The translations under genes and the position numbers were made by a program. This document shows positions 4,103 to 37,006 of a DNA stretch of 37,006 bases, piece after piece (positions within the stretch are counted from its first letter, which is position 1; each line of letters opens with the position of its first letter). Below the pieces are notes generated by a model, which made no database searches, was not told the DNA's origin, and saw nothing but the letters and a program-made list of their open reading frames with translations. Source of the DNA: a virus; IMG/VR virus record IMGVR_UViG_3300031364_000010, positions 1 through 37,006 of that record; one strand, given 5' to 3'.

Positions 4103-4132
4103 TTAATATGATTATAAAAGGGGTGAGTTAAC

Positions 4133-4465
4133 ATGAAAGAAAACGAATTAAGAAAGCATTTAAAGTGCCATAAGTGTGGAAAGCTGCTTGGCGAAAGTTT
4201 CCGCGAAAACGGAACGTTACCTTTTTTTTGGACGCTTAAGGTGCAGAGGTATGTTATCGATAGCGGCGCTGTGTCGCGGCAGCAAGGATTAACTATGATG
4301 CTCGGCGGTCACGCTGCGCTTGCGCAGGTCATGGGCCCGAATGAGGAAATGGCATCACCGGTTTTTGAGAAGCCGGCCGAGATCACTTTGTGCGAACACT
4401 GTGCTGTTTCGAATAGAGTTGTGATAATAGGGCTCGTTGAAAAAATAAATAGGAGGATAAAATGA
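4133..4465 (+). CDS. zinc-binding phage protein, 110 aa
   Basis: ATG at 4133 after GGGGTGAGTTAAC. Cysteine pairs CHKCGK at the N-terminus and CEHC near residue 87 could together form one zinc site; between them lies a helix-rich stretch with a Gly/Ala-rich part. No function recognised. The end overlaps the next ATG (4462). Confidence 0.65.
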   Translation: MKENELRKHLKCHKCGKLLGESFRENGTLPFFWTLKVQRYVIDSGAVSRQQGLTMMLGGHAALAQVMGPNEEMASPVFEKPAEITLCEHCAVSNRVVIIGLVEKINRRIK

Positions 4466-4626
4466 AGGACAAAATAATTTATTGGTTGACGAGAAGATTG
4501 CCCAAAAAACTTGTATATTGGTGCGGTATCAGGTTATGGGCTAATGCGACACAAGGTAAGTGGGCGCATTACGAGGCTCCGGCGGTTACTATGGACGAAG
4601 CTTTAAAAAGATTTTCAGATGACTGA
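4462..4626 (+). CDS. small conserved phage protein, 54 aa
   Basis: ATG at 4462 follows AGGAGGATAAA and the frame ends at TGA 4624-4626. The product begins MKDKIIYWLTRRLPKKLVYWC and ends with TMDEALKRFSDD. Short proteins with the same opening (a basic amphipathic helix, LVYWC, then a MEALKRW-like end) are frequent in siphophages of many hosts. No function is known. Confidence 0.7.
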   Translation: MKDKIIYWLTRRLPKKLVYWCGIRLWANATQGKWAHYEAPAVTMDEALKRFSDD

Positions 4627-4804
4627 AAAGAAATGTGAAAAATGTGGGAAATGTGGAGTTGGCAAATATAATCATGGTAGCGGACTATATGATTATTATG
4701 ACTGTGGCCATGCTTACCAAAAACCAATAGGGAAAGAAGACGGCAAGTGGATATATTTCAGGTCTCCTTATCATCCCAAAATATACAATGGGGGTGTAGC
4801 ATGA
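4619..4804 (+). CDS. zinc-ribbon protein, 61 aa
   Basis: ATG at 4619 overlaps the previous gene. Cysteines CEKCGKCG at residues 6-13 and a later DCGHA give a possible zinc site. The first residues (MTEKK) match those of the genes at 388 and 4801, where a similar start context recurs. Function unknown. Confidence 0.6.
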   Translation: MTEKKCEKCGKCGVGKYNHGSGLYDYYDCGHAYQKPIGKEDGKWIYFRSPYHPKIYNGGVA

Positions 4805-5025
4805 CTGAAAAGATAAAAGCGGAGATTGAGAAAACGATAGATGAAATAGGGCAATATGTATCAGAATTTAATTATCGGCAAGTTTTATTACCAGCACCAA
4901 GTATAAGAAATATCCTCACCGACCTGGTGGAGGAGGCAACGCAGGAAGATAAAGAAAAGATACATTTTCTGGAAGATCAAGTGCAAGATTTGAATAATCG
5001 TATTTTAGGACTGGAGGGCGAATGA
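4801..5025 (+). CDS. hypothetical helical protein, 74 aa
   Basis: ATG at 4801 (ATGA overlap with the preceding stop), preceded by GGGGGTG. The product contains the phrase ILTDLVEEATQEDKEKI and ends in a coiled-coil-like helix. The protein at 6615 has a matching phrase (VLTELVEEVEKDKRKAI), so the two may be distant paralogues. Function unknown. Confidence 0.65.
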   Translation: MTEKIKAEIEKTIDEIGQYVSEFNYRQVLLPAPSIRNILTDLVEEATQEDKEKIHFLEDQVQDLNNRILGLEGE

Positions 5026-26439: not shown

Positions 26440-26931
26440 TCATCTCCAAGCCTTTGCTCGGTATTTTTTAATGGCGAATATGTCCCAAAAGGCTTTCTGC
26501 CTGATCTTCACCCATGTGTCATAGGCTGGCTTTACGACAATATCATATTCGTCAAAGAGCGGATCCCCAGTAATCTCATATTTATCATAGGCCGCCTGCC
26601 TTATCTTCTCATATTTATCATAGGCTGGTTGTTCAATATTATAATATTTGGCACAACCTTGCTGATTCAATAATCTAACGTCAAGACCTATTCCCCGGAA
26701 CTTTACGTTTTTAATGGCGTCCGCTATTTCTTGGGGAAAGTTTTTCGGCGATGAAAAATCGGTACATTCTTTATGTATGCCTCTATTCTGCAAGTCATAA
26801 AAAATTTCAATCGCCCCATGGCCAGATATATCTGCCATATCAATATATGTTGCTCGCTTATCCCTTAGACACTCTTTGGTTAGATAATATAGCGTGTCTT
26901 TGTATTCTATCCAGCTTACAAAATCACACAT
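26440..26931 (-). CDS. protein with five 11-residue repeats, 163 aa
   Basis: ATG at 26931 (minus) after AAGGAGGTTTTCT. The N-terminal 95 residues form a mixed domain (SWIEYKDTLYYLTKECLRDK, HGAIEIFYDLQ). The C-terminal part has five consecutive 11-residue units with consensus AYDKYEKIRQx (PAYDKYEKIRQ, AAYDKYEITGD, PLFDEYDIVVK, PAYDTWVKIRQ, KAFWDIFAIKK). Such YxxY/K hendecad repeats occur in several phage and prophage proteins of unknown function and probably form an extended helix. Its 3' flank carries a second potential partner for the 27297-27313 arm. Confidence 0.75.
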   Translation of the reverse strand: MCDFVSWIEYKDTLYYLTKECLRDKRATYIDMADISGHGAIEIFYDLQNRGIHKECTDFSSPKNFPQEIADAIKNVKFRGIGLDVRLLNQQGCAKYYNIEQPAYDKYEKIRQAAYDKYEITGDPLFDEYDIVVKPAYDTWVKIRQKAFWDIFAIKKYRAKAWR

Positions 26932-26942
26932 AGAAAACCTCC

Positions 26943-27065
26943 TTATTTTGATAGTCTATAGAGCGGCCCAGAGAGCAAGCAGCCAGCTTCGCAGAGCCGT
27001 CGTCTCCACTGATTGTCTGCCATATACCAGTAACGGGAATATGTTATCTGGTTCCTCCAGGCCAT
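26943..27065 (-). CDS. possible 40-aa ORF inside cassette 5
   Basis: ATG at 27065 (minus) lies seven bases after the previous stop; TAA at 26945-26943 overlaps the ribosome site of the next gene (TAAGGAGG). The product would be basic and Trp-rich (MAWRNQITYSRYWYMAD, then NQWRRRLCEAG). There is no clear Shine-Dalgarno. The same bases also form part of the long 3' hairpin of the cassette, so it may be noncoding structure instead. Confidence 0.3.
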   Translation of the reverse strand: MAWRNQITYSRYWYMADNQWRRRLCEAGCLLSGPLYRLSK

Positions 27066-27313
27066 GCTCTTATTACTCAATTTCGATCATGTCAAAATGC
27101 ACGCAAGCTGTAATTTCCGATTTATCATTTATCAGCAGAATATATCCTTTGGGAAAATGGCATTTTATTTCCCATTCCCATGATAATACATATTCTGTTC
27201 CATCGTTAATATCATTACTTCCAACATGAGAAACAATAATTTGTTTTTCAGATTTTAAAACTTTAACACAAACCATAAGACCTCCTCTGAGCATATCGCT
27301 CTATAGACTATCA
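26949..27313 (-). repeat. complementary-arm cassette 5
   Basis: Minus-strand arm TGATAGTCTATAGAGCG (27313-27297), before the ribosome site of the 27276 gene, pairs perfectly over 17 bases with CGCTCTATAGACTATCA (26965-26949), after it. Next to the 5' arm, GAGC-GATAT-GCTC forms a local hairpin that ends just before AGAGGAGG. The 3' side has GAGC...GGCC/GGCC-GCTC, enclosing about 90 extra bases (a possible 40-codon ORF at 27065-26943). The 5' arm can also pair with 26428-26416 (13 pairs, two G-U). Confidence 0.8.
27073..27276 (-). CDS. hypothetical protein, 67 aa (cassette 5)
   Basis: ATG at 27276 (minus) with AGAGGAGG six bases upstream; an earlier ATG at 27294 would fall inside the local hairpin. 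The product is beta-rich: VCVKVLKSEKQIIVSHVGS, TEYVLSWEWEIKC, KGYILLINDKSEITACV. No family recognised. TAA is followed almost at once by the 3' hairpin, as in the other cassettes. Confidence 0.65.
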   Translation of the reverse strand: MVCVKVLKSEKQIIVSHVGSNDINDGTEYVLSWEWEIKCHFPKGYILLINDKSEITACVHFDMIEIE

Positions 27314-27316
27314 GTT

Positions 27317-27654
27317 GTTTGCAGATTATAGAGCCGCCGGAGAAAACTCCGGCGATTGGCCCTTAATTTTTTATGCGTATATGCATCCGTGTGGTCAGTG
27401 ACCCGTGTTGCCATATTTGCCCGTATCGATTATGAGAATCTGTCGTTAATTCATTGTTTTGCTGAAAATAACCAGTCTGGCCAAAATGTTTTTTTATTGC
27501 TCGCTCAATAGCAATATTTGGATCGGATGTGTTGTGATTACTAATCCACTCCTCTCCATTATTTCTGCATTCCTCAATAATAACTACCATAATATTCCCC
27601 CGCGTTGGTCGTCACCATATTTCCGAACCTATACAGGCTCTACAATCTGCAAAC
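27317..27654 (-). repeat. complementary-arm cassette 4
   Basis: Minus-strand arm GTTTGCAGATTGTAGAGCC (27654-27636) pairs with GGCTCTATAATCTGCAAAC (27335-27317) over 19 bases, one of them G-U. The 5' side adds the hairpin GAGCC-TGTATA-GGTTC, the 3' side GGGC-CAAT-CGCCGGAG-TTTT-CTCCGGCG-GCTC starting right after the stop. It encloses the gene at 27590-27363. Two bases separate its 5' arm from the 3' arm of cassette 3. Confidence 0.85.
27363..27590 (-). CDS. hypothetical protein, 75 aa (cassette 4)
   Basis: ATG at 27590 (minus) after GGGGGAATATT. The product opens with a strand (MVVIIEECRNNGEEWIS), then a helix (NIAIERAIKKHFGQTGYFQ) and a His/Thr-rich end. No family recognised. Stop TAA lies just before the GC-rich 3' hairpin. 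Confidence 0.65.
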   Translation of the reverse strand: MVVIIEECRNNGEEWISNHNTSDPNIAIERAIKKHFGQTGYFQQNNELTTDSHNRYGQIWQHGSLTTRMHIRIKN

Positions 27655-27699
27655 GTGATACTACCTCACGAGCCGCCCCGTTTCCGAGGCGCGGCCCAG

Positions 27700-27858
27700 T
27701 TAACTAATTTTTGTAATTACTTTCCTCAAGCAATTAGTGCAATATCCGTTTTTCACATTAGTATGCTTACACTCCGTGCCGAACCGCTTTTTCCCCTGTT
27801 CGTGCATATATTCATACAGTTCTTGTTGTGTCGGATGCATAATATCTTTTATGTCCAC
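27700..27858 (-). CDS. small zinc-knuckle-like protein, 52 aa (cassette 3, second gene)
   Basis: GTG start at 27858 (minus) after GGGGGTGAAGT, overlapping the end of the preceding gene by ten bases; TAA at 27702-27700. The product has a helix (TQQELYEYMHEQGKKRF) followed by ECKHTNVKNGYCTNC, a possible C-H-C-C metal site, and a basic tail. No family recognised. Confidence 0.6.
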   Translation of the reverse strand: MDIKDIMHPTQQELYEYMHEQGKKRFGTECKHTNVKNGYCTNCLRKVITKIS

Positions 27859-28058
27859 ACTTCACCCCCTTTTTTGTAACTTTCATATTTTTGAAGCGCT
27901 TTTTGATGTTGAGAAAATTTAAATGCTTCACAAGATCCATTATTTTTGAAAATAGTAACCATATATTCCGTTGTCGATAATTCATCTAAATAAACATCAG
28001 CCCATCCTAATACTTTGAACCTAACAGTATATTTTGATGGTTTGTTTTCTTTTATCAT
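27849..28058 (-). CDS. hypothetical protein, 69 aa (cassette 3, first gene)
   Basis: ATG at 28058 (minus) with GGAGG five bases upstream. A frame reading back to 28328 would pass through two hairpins and is a shadow in its first half. The product is beta-rich (SKYTVRFKVLGWADVYLDEL, TTEYMVTIFKNNG) with a helix (QHQKALQKYESYKKG). No family recognised. Confidence 0.65.
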   Translation of the reverse strand: MIKENKPSKYTVRFKVLGWADVYLDELSTTEYMVTIFKNNGSCEAFKFSQHQKALQKYESYKKGGEVWT

Positions 28059-28099
28059 TTTAACCTCCATGAGCATATAAGCTCGTGAGATAGTATCGC

Positions 28100-28368
28100 C
28101 ACAAGGCACTATAGAGCCGCCCCCGTGTGGGGGCTGTGCTCTGTTACGCATTATCTTTGATGTACTGTTCTGCTTCTTTTTCTGTTTCAAACCAATCGCC
28201 TTTTTCTGTGTTTTCTTCACCGTCGGCGAGAACAACATAATAATGAGCAGGAGACGTAAACTCTCCATCATCATTTGTGCTTCTCTCAAAATCTGCAACT
28301 CTGGTTTTACATATATGCATAATAACACCTCCTTAGTGTGTGAGCTTAAAGCTCTACAGTGCCTTGTG
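28100..28368 (-). repeat. complementary-arm cassette 2
   Basis: Minus-strand arm CACAAGGCACTGTAGAGC (28368-28351) pairs with GCTCTATAGTGCCTTGTG (28117-28100) over 18 bases with one G-U. The 5' side has GAGC-TTTAA-GCTC, the 3' side GAGC-ACA-GCCCCC-ACAC-GGGGGC-G-GCTC. It encloses the gene at 28320-28144. Two-base linkers separate it from cassettes 1 and 3. Confidence 0.88.
28144..28320 (-). CDS. hypothetical protein, 58 aa (cassette 2)
   Basis: ATG at 28320 (minus) after AAGGAGGTGTTATT. The product is acidic: MHICKTRVADFERSTNDDGE, a strand AHYYVVLADGEE and a helix KEAEQYIKDNA. The opening and acid end recall small phage host-takeover proteins in composition only. No family recognised. A longer frame across this region is in another phase. 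Confidence 0.65.
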   Translation of the reverse strand: MHICKTRVADFERSTNDDGEFTSPAHYYVVLADGEENTEKGDWFETEKEAEQYIKDNA

Positions 28369-28370
28369 TT

Positions 28371-28625
28371 ATTGACAGCCTATAGAGCGGCCCCGTCTCC
28401 GGGGCTGCGCTCTTATTCGGTTTCGTTTGTTACGCCAAACTGACCTTTTTTTGTTTCAGCATAAATGCCAAAACTTTCTTCATTCGTTTCGAAAATCTGA
28501 ACATTATCCGCATAATCGGGTTCGTCAAGTTTTAATTGCGCTGCATAATTTTTAGCGGCTGATATGTTGTTAAAATATTTAGTCATGTAACACCTCCTGA
28601 GCTTTTCGCTCTACAGGCTGTCAAT
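28371..28625 (-). repeat. complementary-arm cassette 1
   Basis: Minus-strand arm ATTGACAGCCTGTAGAGC (28625-28608) pairs with GCTCTATAGGCTGTCAAT (28388-28371) over 18 bases with one G-U. The 5' side has GAGC-GAAAA-GCTC directly before AGGAGG; the 3' side has GAGC-GCA-GCCCC-GGAGAC-GGGGC-C-GCTC starting at the stop codon. It encloses the gene at 28586-28413 and is the first cassette of the transcript. Confidence 0.88.
28413..28586 (-). CDS. hypothetical protein, 57 aa (cassette 1)
   Basis: ATG at 28586 (minus) after AGGAGGTGTTAC; TAA at 28415-28413. The product starts with a helix (YFNNISAAKNYAAQLKLD) and continues acidic with strands (VQIFETNEESFGIYAET). No family recognised. First cistron of the minus operon. 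Confidence 0.65.
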   Translation of the reverse strand: MTKYFNNISAAKNYAAQLKLDEPDYADNVQIFETNEESFGIYAETKKGQFGVTNETE

Positions 28626-28733
28626 CCCTTCTCTTTCCATTTTCGCTTCCAGGCTACCGAGGGACTTTCTTTCGCCGCTCTGCGCTACTCCGTGCCACCT
28701 TGCCGGCTCCCGTGACTGTTATTGTCACTCTCT
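28590..28733 (-). promoter_or_regulatory. GC-rich structured leader of the minus operon
   Basis: About 145 bases lie between the predicted transcription start (near 28733) and the first gene. They hold GTGAC/GTCAC around a seven-base loop at the very 5' end, then a GC-rich part in which GGGA-GCCG can pair with CGGC and TCCC, clearly richer in GC than the surroundings. A nine-codon frame (MEREGIDSL, stop TAG) reads into the first cassette arm. No known RNA family was recognised. Confidence 0.5.
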
Positions 28734-34971: not shown

Positions 34972-35656
34972 CATTGTACATAATTGTGACTGCATGGATA
35001 TAATGAAAGACAAGCCGGATAACCATTATGATTTGGCTATTGTTGACCCGCCGTATGGAATCGGAGATTTTAATCAAACGGCAAGTAAAAAAATACATAA
35101 AAAAATAACGTGGAATAATAAAATTCCATCAAAACAATATTTTATAGAATTGTTTAGAATATCTAAAAACCAAATAATATGGGGAGCAAATTATTATCCA
35201 GATTTAATTGGTGGTAGAATAATACACGATAAATTAGATGGTGGTATTCAAAGGCAATGTCGTGAATTATCTGACTGCGACATCGCATACCATTCATTCG
35301 GGGTTAATATTAAAATATTTAGATTTGCCTGGAAGGGAAATGTACAGGGTAAAACAATAAATTGGAAAAATATTGGAAAGAATGCAAGAATACACCCATG
35401 TCAAAAACCAGTAGATCTCTATGCATGGCTATTAACCAATTACGCAAAGCCCGGCCAAAAAATATTCGATTCCCATGTAGGTTCTGGTTCAATTCGCATT
35501 GCTTGTCATGATTTGGGCTTTGACTTTGAGGGATGCGAAATTGATAAAGATTATTGGGCCGATCAGGAAAAGCGATATCAGGAATATATTTCGCAGCAAG
35601 AACTTTTTGATAAAAAAGAAATGCAAGAATTAATTTATGATACAAGCGGGAGGTAG
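34964..35656 (+). CDS. DNA amino-methyltransferase (N6-adenine / N4-cytosine), DPPYG type
   Basis: ATG at 34964 after GGGCGGATTTGATT. The 230-residue product has VDPPYGIGDF at residues 27-36 (catalytic DPPY) and, near 167, IFDSHVGSGSIRIA (SAM-binding FxGxGS position). The order, catalytic motif first, is that of the beta class. FEGCEIDKDYW closes the fold. It probably protects phage DNA from restriction or pairs with the nuclease-like gene at 34310. Confidence 0.9.
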   Translation: MNNIVHNCDCMDIMKDKPDNHYDLAIVDPPYGIGDFNQTASKKIHKKITWNNKIPSKQYFIELFRISKNQIIWGANYYPDLIGGRIIHDKLDGGIQRQCRELSDCDIAYHSFGVNIKIFRFAWKGNVQGKTINWKNIGKNARIHPCQKPVDLYAWLLTNYAKPGQKIFDSHVGSGSIRIACHDLGFDFEGCEIDKDYWADQEKRYQEYISQQELFDKKEMQELIYDTSGR

Positions 35657-35659
35657 AGA

Positions 35660-35917
35660 ATGCCTTATATAAAAGTATGGGCCAGCAATGAAGATAAAGA
35701 GCGTTATAAAAAACATGCCGCAGAAAAGAAAACTACACTGTCAAAGTTTATGAATTACGCCGCTGATCGGTACTGTGTAACCAATCCTTTAAGGGCCGAA
35801 AAAGAAGCGCGCAGGGCAACAAATAAAGAAAATCTGCGGAGTTTGGTAAGTGAAATATTAAGGGAAGAATTGGCCAAGACAAGGCCAATCAACACGGAGG
35901 ACGATAAATCATATTAG
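35660..35917 (+). CDS. small ribbon-helix-helix-like protein, 85 aa
   Basis: ATG at 35660 with GGGAGGTAGAGA upstream. A strand (YIKVWASNEDKERY) followed by a helix (TTLSKFMNYAADRY) recalls the MobC/Arc-type ribbon-helix-helix; a basic helix follows. It could be a DNA-binding regulator of the operon. No family name is sure. Confidence 0.6.
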   Translation: MPYIKVWASNEDKERYKKHAAEKKTTLSKFMNYAADRYCVTNPLRAEKEARRATNKENLRSLVSEILREELAKTRPINTEDDKSY

Positions 35918-36852: not shown

Positions 36853-37006
36853 ATGAATGTCAAAGAAATAGTAAAAAAATATCTTGAGGAAAACGGTTAT
36901 GACGGGCTTTATAATTTAGAGGGAGAATGCGGTTGCACAAAATATCATCTTTTCCCCTGCGAAAGTTGCCCCGATGAATGCGAGGCCGGATATTTGGTTG
37001 ACCCAC
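36853..37006 (+). CDS. small Cys-rich phage protein, 5' part (continues at base 1)
   Basis: ATG at 36853 after TAGGAGGAATAC. The frame runs to the end of the window and continues without a break at base 1, where codon TAT is the tenth codon; it ends at 177. See the entry at 1-177 for the product. Confidence 0.8.
   Translation, partial: MNVKEIVKKYLEENGYDGLYNLEGECGCTKYHLFPCESCPDECEAGYLVDP
36880..37006. repeat. terminal direct repeat, right copy
   Basis: Identical to bases 1-127. The odd length of 127 equals a common largest assembly k-mer, which supports an assembly overlap of a circular graph over a biological repeat. Confidence 0.95.

Follow-up and report, generated by a model that had tools for sequence, protein, structure and literature searches.

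The polycistronic early mRNA of phage T7 is cut between genes by the host RNase III, and the T7 sites are local hairpins. A long-range helix around the product is the arrangement in bacterial pre-rRNA, where leader-trailer helices are cut by RNase III (e.g. PMC10250234). In B. subtilis, RNase III is reported to cut mRNAs at intramolecular long-range duplexes, 10-36 bp in length and with no more than 505 nt between the cuts (PMC11780869), and in Staphylococcus aureus the 5'-UTR and 3'-UTR of icaR pair, forming an RNase III substrate (PMC3868564). Among phages, the ESAS of the cluster K mycobacteriophages are 17-bp inverted repeats beside the ribosome sites of small genes (PMC3203893). A literature search for a phage operon with the architecture described below found none, only pieces of the idea, with subscription journals largely outside its scope.

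The operon lies on the minus strand of a phage genome, IMG/VR record IMGVR_UViG_3300031364_000010, all 37,006 bases of which were analysed and are referred to as the window. Its two ends share 127 identical bp (1-127 = 36880-37006), and since this overlap is exact the window, despite its classification as linear, probably represents a whole genome that is circular or permuted. It encodes tailed-phage genes (terminase, portal, protease, capsid and tape measure) and recombination-type genes (an Erf-like annealing protein, exonuclease-like proteins and a RusA resolvase). The operon extends from a strong promoter-like site at 28768-28740 (sigma-70-like, TTGACA-17-TATATT, 11 of 12 consensus bases, a consensus match only) to an intrinsic terminator-like hairpin at 25504-25481. 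On its strand no good intrinsic terminator was found between the cistrons (28768 to 25481). The 5' terminus of the leader would form a hairpin, GTGACAATAACAGTCAC, at 28712-28728.

Five consecutive units of this operon are each enclosed by a private complementary pair of arms, 17-19 bp long, in which the only departures from Watson-Crick pairing are G-U. At their maximal extent, the arms lie at 28625-28607/28389-28371 for unit 1 (19 bp, 1 G-U), 28368-28350/28118-28100 for unit 2 (19 bp, 2 G-U), 28097-28080/27674-27657 for unit 3 (18 bp, 2 G-U), 27654-27636/27335-27317 for unit 4 (19 bp, 1 G-U) and 27313-27297/26965-26949 for unit 5 (17 bp, no G-U), the 5' arm being given before the 3' arm. Neighbouring units are separated by only 2, 2, 2 and 3 nt (spacers AA, GC, AC and AAC). 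A sequence-only reading of the window had reported both the five pairs and these gaps, and every one of them was found where it had been placed. The arm pairs are real. That reading had also held that equally long tiled pairs in shuffled sequence would count against it; the longest pair in 100 dinucleotide shuffles of 26900-28700 (loop 150-500 nt) was 14 bp, and pairs of at least 14 bp occurred at a mean of 0.03 per shuffle, compared with the five of 17-19 bp observed. The remainder of the window contains scattered pairs of 14-17 bp, none of them tiled. The 3' arm of unit 1 (28389-28373) has a possible second partner in the 5' arm of unit 5 (27313-27297), over 17 bp with 2 G-U; that pairing would compete with the private pairs and place units 2-4 inside one larger enclosure.

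Each unit follows the order arm, small hairpin, ribosome site, gene, stop codon, GC-rich hairpin, arm; unit 3 encloses two genes and the other four one each. The claim that a single plan serves all five units held for this layout but not in every detail. All features are on the minus strand. The 5' mini-hairpin of unit 1, GAGC-GAAAA-GCTC, lies at 28599-28611, and those of units 2, 3 and 5 at 28342-28354, 28071-28084 and 27289-27301; that of unit 4 (27625-27640) is GAGCC-TGTATA-GGTTC, ie GAGCC/GGTTC with a G-U rather than GAGC/GCTC. Start codons follow a short distance 3' of the mini-hairpin. The genes encode 57 aa in unit 1 (28413-28586, no family), 58 aa in unit 2 (28144-28320), 69 and 52 aa in unit 3 (27849-28058 and 27700-27858, the second with a C-x-H...C-x2-C pattern), 75 aa in unit 4 (27363-27590) and 67 aa in unit 5 (27073-27276). 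From the stop codon to the 3' hairpin the distance is 0-3 nt, and arms and hairpins all lie outside the genes. The 3' hairpin of unit 1 (28385-28412) directly follows the stop codon and, like that of unit 2 (28114-28141), is closed by GAGC...GCTC; those of units 3 (27670-27697) and 4 (27331-27362) are closed by GGGC/GCTC, with a G-U. In unit 5 the 3' element is a structured stretch of about 110 nt (26961-27069, GAGC...GCTC) and not one simple hairpin.

None of the cassette proteins matched Pfam above threshold or PHROG convincingly, and a search with three of them among public phages found no relative. AlphaFold models of the unit 5 and unit 2 proteins, with mean pLDDT of 51 and 68, were too poor for use. 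The same transcript continues into gene 6 (26440-26931, 163 aa), which has no enclosing arms of its own. After it, at 26428-26416, is a diverged echo of the 3' arm of unit 5, CTATAGATTATTA, which could pair with the 5' arm of that unit (13 bp, 2 G-U) and looks like the remnant of an outer enclosure once common to genes 5 and 6. A homologue of gene 6 in another phage (L014, 802-1710) carries a long run of AEYEKIxQPA-type repeats, with a tandem LTPAQLDRAAAAEP repeat gene just upstream. Also within the transcript is a tRNA-Leu-like sequence of 114 nt (26413-26300), the only match in the window to Rfam 15 at the gathering threshold (tRNA, 42 bits), no family being found for the cassettes; ARAGORN reported nothing, and the stretch from D-arm to T-arm is unusually long. 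For the two genes 3' of it (26230-25940), the ribosome site follows closely on a second mini-hairpin, GGCTRTTAAGCC, with a GC-rich hairpin also preceding the genes; the plan is related to that of the cassettes but has no arms.

Set against the systems named above, the locus is most like the pre-rRNA leader-trailer in having complementary arms that enclose each product in a private long-range helix, with the pairing conserved and the flanking ends structured. It differs in that the enclosed items are translated phage cistrons of 52-75 aa with gaps of 2-3 nt, and in that cutting is here something we infer. The RNase III sites of T7 lie between genes, whereas the present helices enclose them. With the B. 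subtilis substrates the locus shares an intramolecular duplex and the size range, the arm duplexes (17-19 bp) and loops (roughly 215-410 nt) falling within 10-36 bp and up to 505 nt (PMC11780869). Those sites are scattered, single and experimentally determined, whereas here there is an ordered array with one duplex per unit and compensated exchange. As in icaR, both ends of one cistron pair, but the icaR pairing occludes the ribosome site and here the ribosome sites are outside the helix. The ESAS are consensus repeats upstream of a gene, whereas the phage arms enclose the gene and differ from unit to unit; they provide no common inverted repeat upstream of the ribosome sites.

In the predicted fold of the 2446-nt transcript all five arm helices form (mean P 0.94-1.0), although a translated message may fold otherwise. 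Each unit is predicted to be 5.3-6.2 SD more stable than its dinucleotide shuffles. The arm sequences would also form hairpins as DNA. It had further been proposed that the GAGC/GCTC blocks create a four-way junction able to branch-migrate. The sequence does allow this, but the conformer with the fully extended arm is favoured by 3-7 kcal/mol over that with both local hairpins, and branch migration is therefore possible on paper but biased. Ribozyme-driven circularisation of the RNA was considered and set aside, Rfam giving no self-cleaving ribozyme family even at lax thresholds.

The search for relatives with a cassette yielded a single one, IMGVR_UViG_3300031277_000009 (G051), a circular contig of 41,711 bases with a 50-base end overlap. 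It was retrieved with the unit 2 protein and not by means of the arms, and further searches with peptides of units 3-5 returned G051 alone. Its copy of the unit 2 gene differs at 4 of 177 nt, with two amino-acid changes (97% identical), and its unit is 6.7 SD more stable than shuffles. The arms around that gene in G051 are TCAGTACTCCAGGAGC/GCTCTTGGAGTACTGA (16 bp, one G-U), compared with CACAAGGCACTGTAGAGC/GCTCTATAGTGCCTTGTG in the window; over the outer 12 positions the two sets agree at only two or three, which is the chance expectation. Going outward from the gene, homology at the DNA level is lost at the inner arm edges (28354-28113). The leader of G051, located 5' of the cassette, is similar to that of the window and its 5' hairpin is identical. 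At the divergence of the gene, the probability that even one arm changed independently at 9 or more of 12 sites is P ~3e-13. With only four gene bases changed, one-by-one compensation cannot explain the exchange of arms; the gene body and arms of unit 2 were re-paired in concert, through recombination or a single step, and the two arms match each other afterwards. The sequence-only reading had named uncompensated arm changes in related genomes as evidence against itself, and the sole relative shows full compensation. As G051 carries a single cassette, tiling is not obligatory.

The two phages are otherwise largely dissimilar, apart from a stretch of 707 bp at 97% identity (window 4129-4835 = G051 35091-35797), which on its sequence is a recent module exchange within the same phage population. 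Direct repeats, GGTCAGGC, rather than inverted ones flank the gene after the G051 (L274) cassette (5690-5660 and 5180-5150, minus strand), and two terminator-like hairpins lie 3' of that gene.

When the five window cassettes and that of G051 were aligned, all cells were paired (96/96), and the variable pairs changed on both sides in 12 of 12 cases with no one-sided changes; since the window units were chosen for complementarity these counts are partly circular, and only G051 is independent. Double-change cells numbered 28, against 7.8 +/- 2.4 after shuffling, and the signal collapsed when the partner was slid by one to three columns. Over the full arm length there are 98 Watson-Crick pairs and 5 that read as G-U on the mRNA strand; A-C and all other mismatches are absent. 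That every one of the five departures is G-U in this sense, and none A-C, is weak evidence for RNA rather than DNA (p ~0.03, three of the five falling at one shared position). Arms 1 and 5 resemble each other in sequence, and where they differ it is by transitions that are matched in the partner arm; set beside the swap in G051, this means that two modes are seen, compensation step by step and exchange of the whole arm set. The claim that covariation points to RNA structure is strengthened insofar as pairing is kept beyond one genome. It is supported by these comparisons that the pairing itself is conserved and not its letters, and pairing of the RNA around each unit is a well supported reading of them.

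Beyond G051 the arrangement was not found. About 50 phages sharing the portal, nearly all of them whole, have no arms that tile or that enclose a gene, and across 6,379 gene-like ORFs of portal-related phages the arm lengths were close to the mismatched control, with the exception of G051. The leader hairpin occurs in the viral collection in G051 only. The junction consensus GCTCTATA..TRTAGAGC..GCTC matched 12 loci in viral contigs and 14 in genome contigs, none with enclosing arm pairs; a looser form matched at least 119 loci in viral contigs, with no enclosing arm pairs among the matches listed. Across about 420 bacterial genomes the operon gave only matches that were short and marginal, and the best lay in the tRNA-like stretch. 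Unrelated to the cassettes is a repeat element examined from Mucilaginibacter, with terminal inverted repeats of 26 bp and internal hairpins; it occurs on two contigs of one genome (L261 4810-5285 and L266 3277-3618) and has a MITE-like look.

The reading we prefer, at a probability of about 0.5, is that these are leader-trailer-like mRNA helices around the cistrons of an early operon, which host RNase III would cut or which would act as insulators, and that the bodies they enclose are interchangeable. The two ends of each unit in one polycistronic early mRNA would pair as a leader-trailer-like helix of 17-19 bp, continued by the GC-rich hairpin next to the 3' arm and enclosing the ribosome site and the gene or genes. 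This helix, formed in the transcript, would be the feature under selection. No RNase III was found in the phage, and it is the host, assumed to supply one, whose enzyme is proposed to cut the helix, or else another double-strand-specific nuclease. Cutting would yield separate mRNAs, each with its 5' mini-hairpin and 3' hairpin; uncut, the helix would still insulate the cistron from its neighbours, and the private arms would prevent mispairing between them. The invariant GAGC/GCTC at the inner arm edge would be the place where bodies are exchanged between arm sets, a step that the phage's own recombination by Erf-type annealing and exonuclease would probably carry out, mismatched products then being lost to selection. 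The earlier suggestion of cassette gain is upheld as to exchange, but what is exchanged appears to be the body between the arms and not the arms with their gene.

The main rival also takes the helix to be selected RNA, but as a tether and not as a cutting site: it would hold the ends of the cistron together, stabilise it and prevent read-through or interference at ribosome sites. It draws on the same structural and covariation evidence, and it suits the stop codons that abut the 3' hairpin, the starts shortly after the 5' mini-hairpin and a phage with no RNase III of its own. By itself, however, it leaves unexplained why the helices have the length of RNase III substrates (10-36 bp, PMC11780869), and the private arms also fit cutting; we regard it as unlikely, though worth serious weight. 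Rather less probable is that the arms are a feature of the DNA, with bodies inserted into the middle of a palindrome, or the first arm serving as template for the second, and no role in RNA. Homology with G051 that ends at the inner arm edges, and two arms that change together, are what body insertion or template switching would produce, and the phage encodes annealing and exonuclease proteins. Yet the 2-3 nt junctions show no target-site duplications, and neither an integrase or resolvase family nor an empty palindrome was found; the arms match nothing longer than 11 nt elsewhere in the window or in G051, and do not travel with the gene. The departures from pairing, G-U in the mRNA sense in every case, and the paired transitions of arms 1 and 5, which resemble ordinary compensatory change, also speak against it.

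Mobile cassettes of the transposon or integron type, carrying their own terminal repeats, would account for small orphan genes in tandem that are exchanged between phages. In an integron, however, the recombination site moves with the cassette, and gene 2 is found in the window and G051 between wholly different arms, which contradicts such a model for unit 2; a tyrosine recombinase integrase (PF00589) is absent from both genomes, and the arms are private, with neither the target duplications nor the repeats common to all copies that mark transposons. This origin is accordingly very improbable. Slightly more improbable still are invertible segments subject to phase variation, which the geometry of inverted repeats around a gene would suggest. 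The serine recombinases (PF00239) are absent from the window and G051, as are the tyrosine enzymes; the repeats differ between units and the outer arms are private, leaving no common site for a recombinase, and in neither genome does any body run in the opposite orientation.

Returning to helices that are cut or insulate, a wider proposal can be put forward tentatively, at somewhat less than even odds: that the operon is modular, an orthogonal helix serving each cistron as its address, with bodies swapped at the GAGC/GCTC edges and each mRNA released or insulated singly. If true, this would be a plug-and-play message architecture not previously described, in which the polycistronic message of a phage consists of successive RNA domains, each closed on itself and holding a single gene. 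Two questions would become testable: how cistrons within an operon are insulated from one another and processed singly, and by what route small accessory genes enter without disturbing their neighbours. Private arms, a constant GAGC/GCTC edge and local hairpins may also suggest a design rule for insulated synthetic operons.
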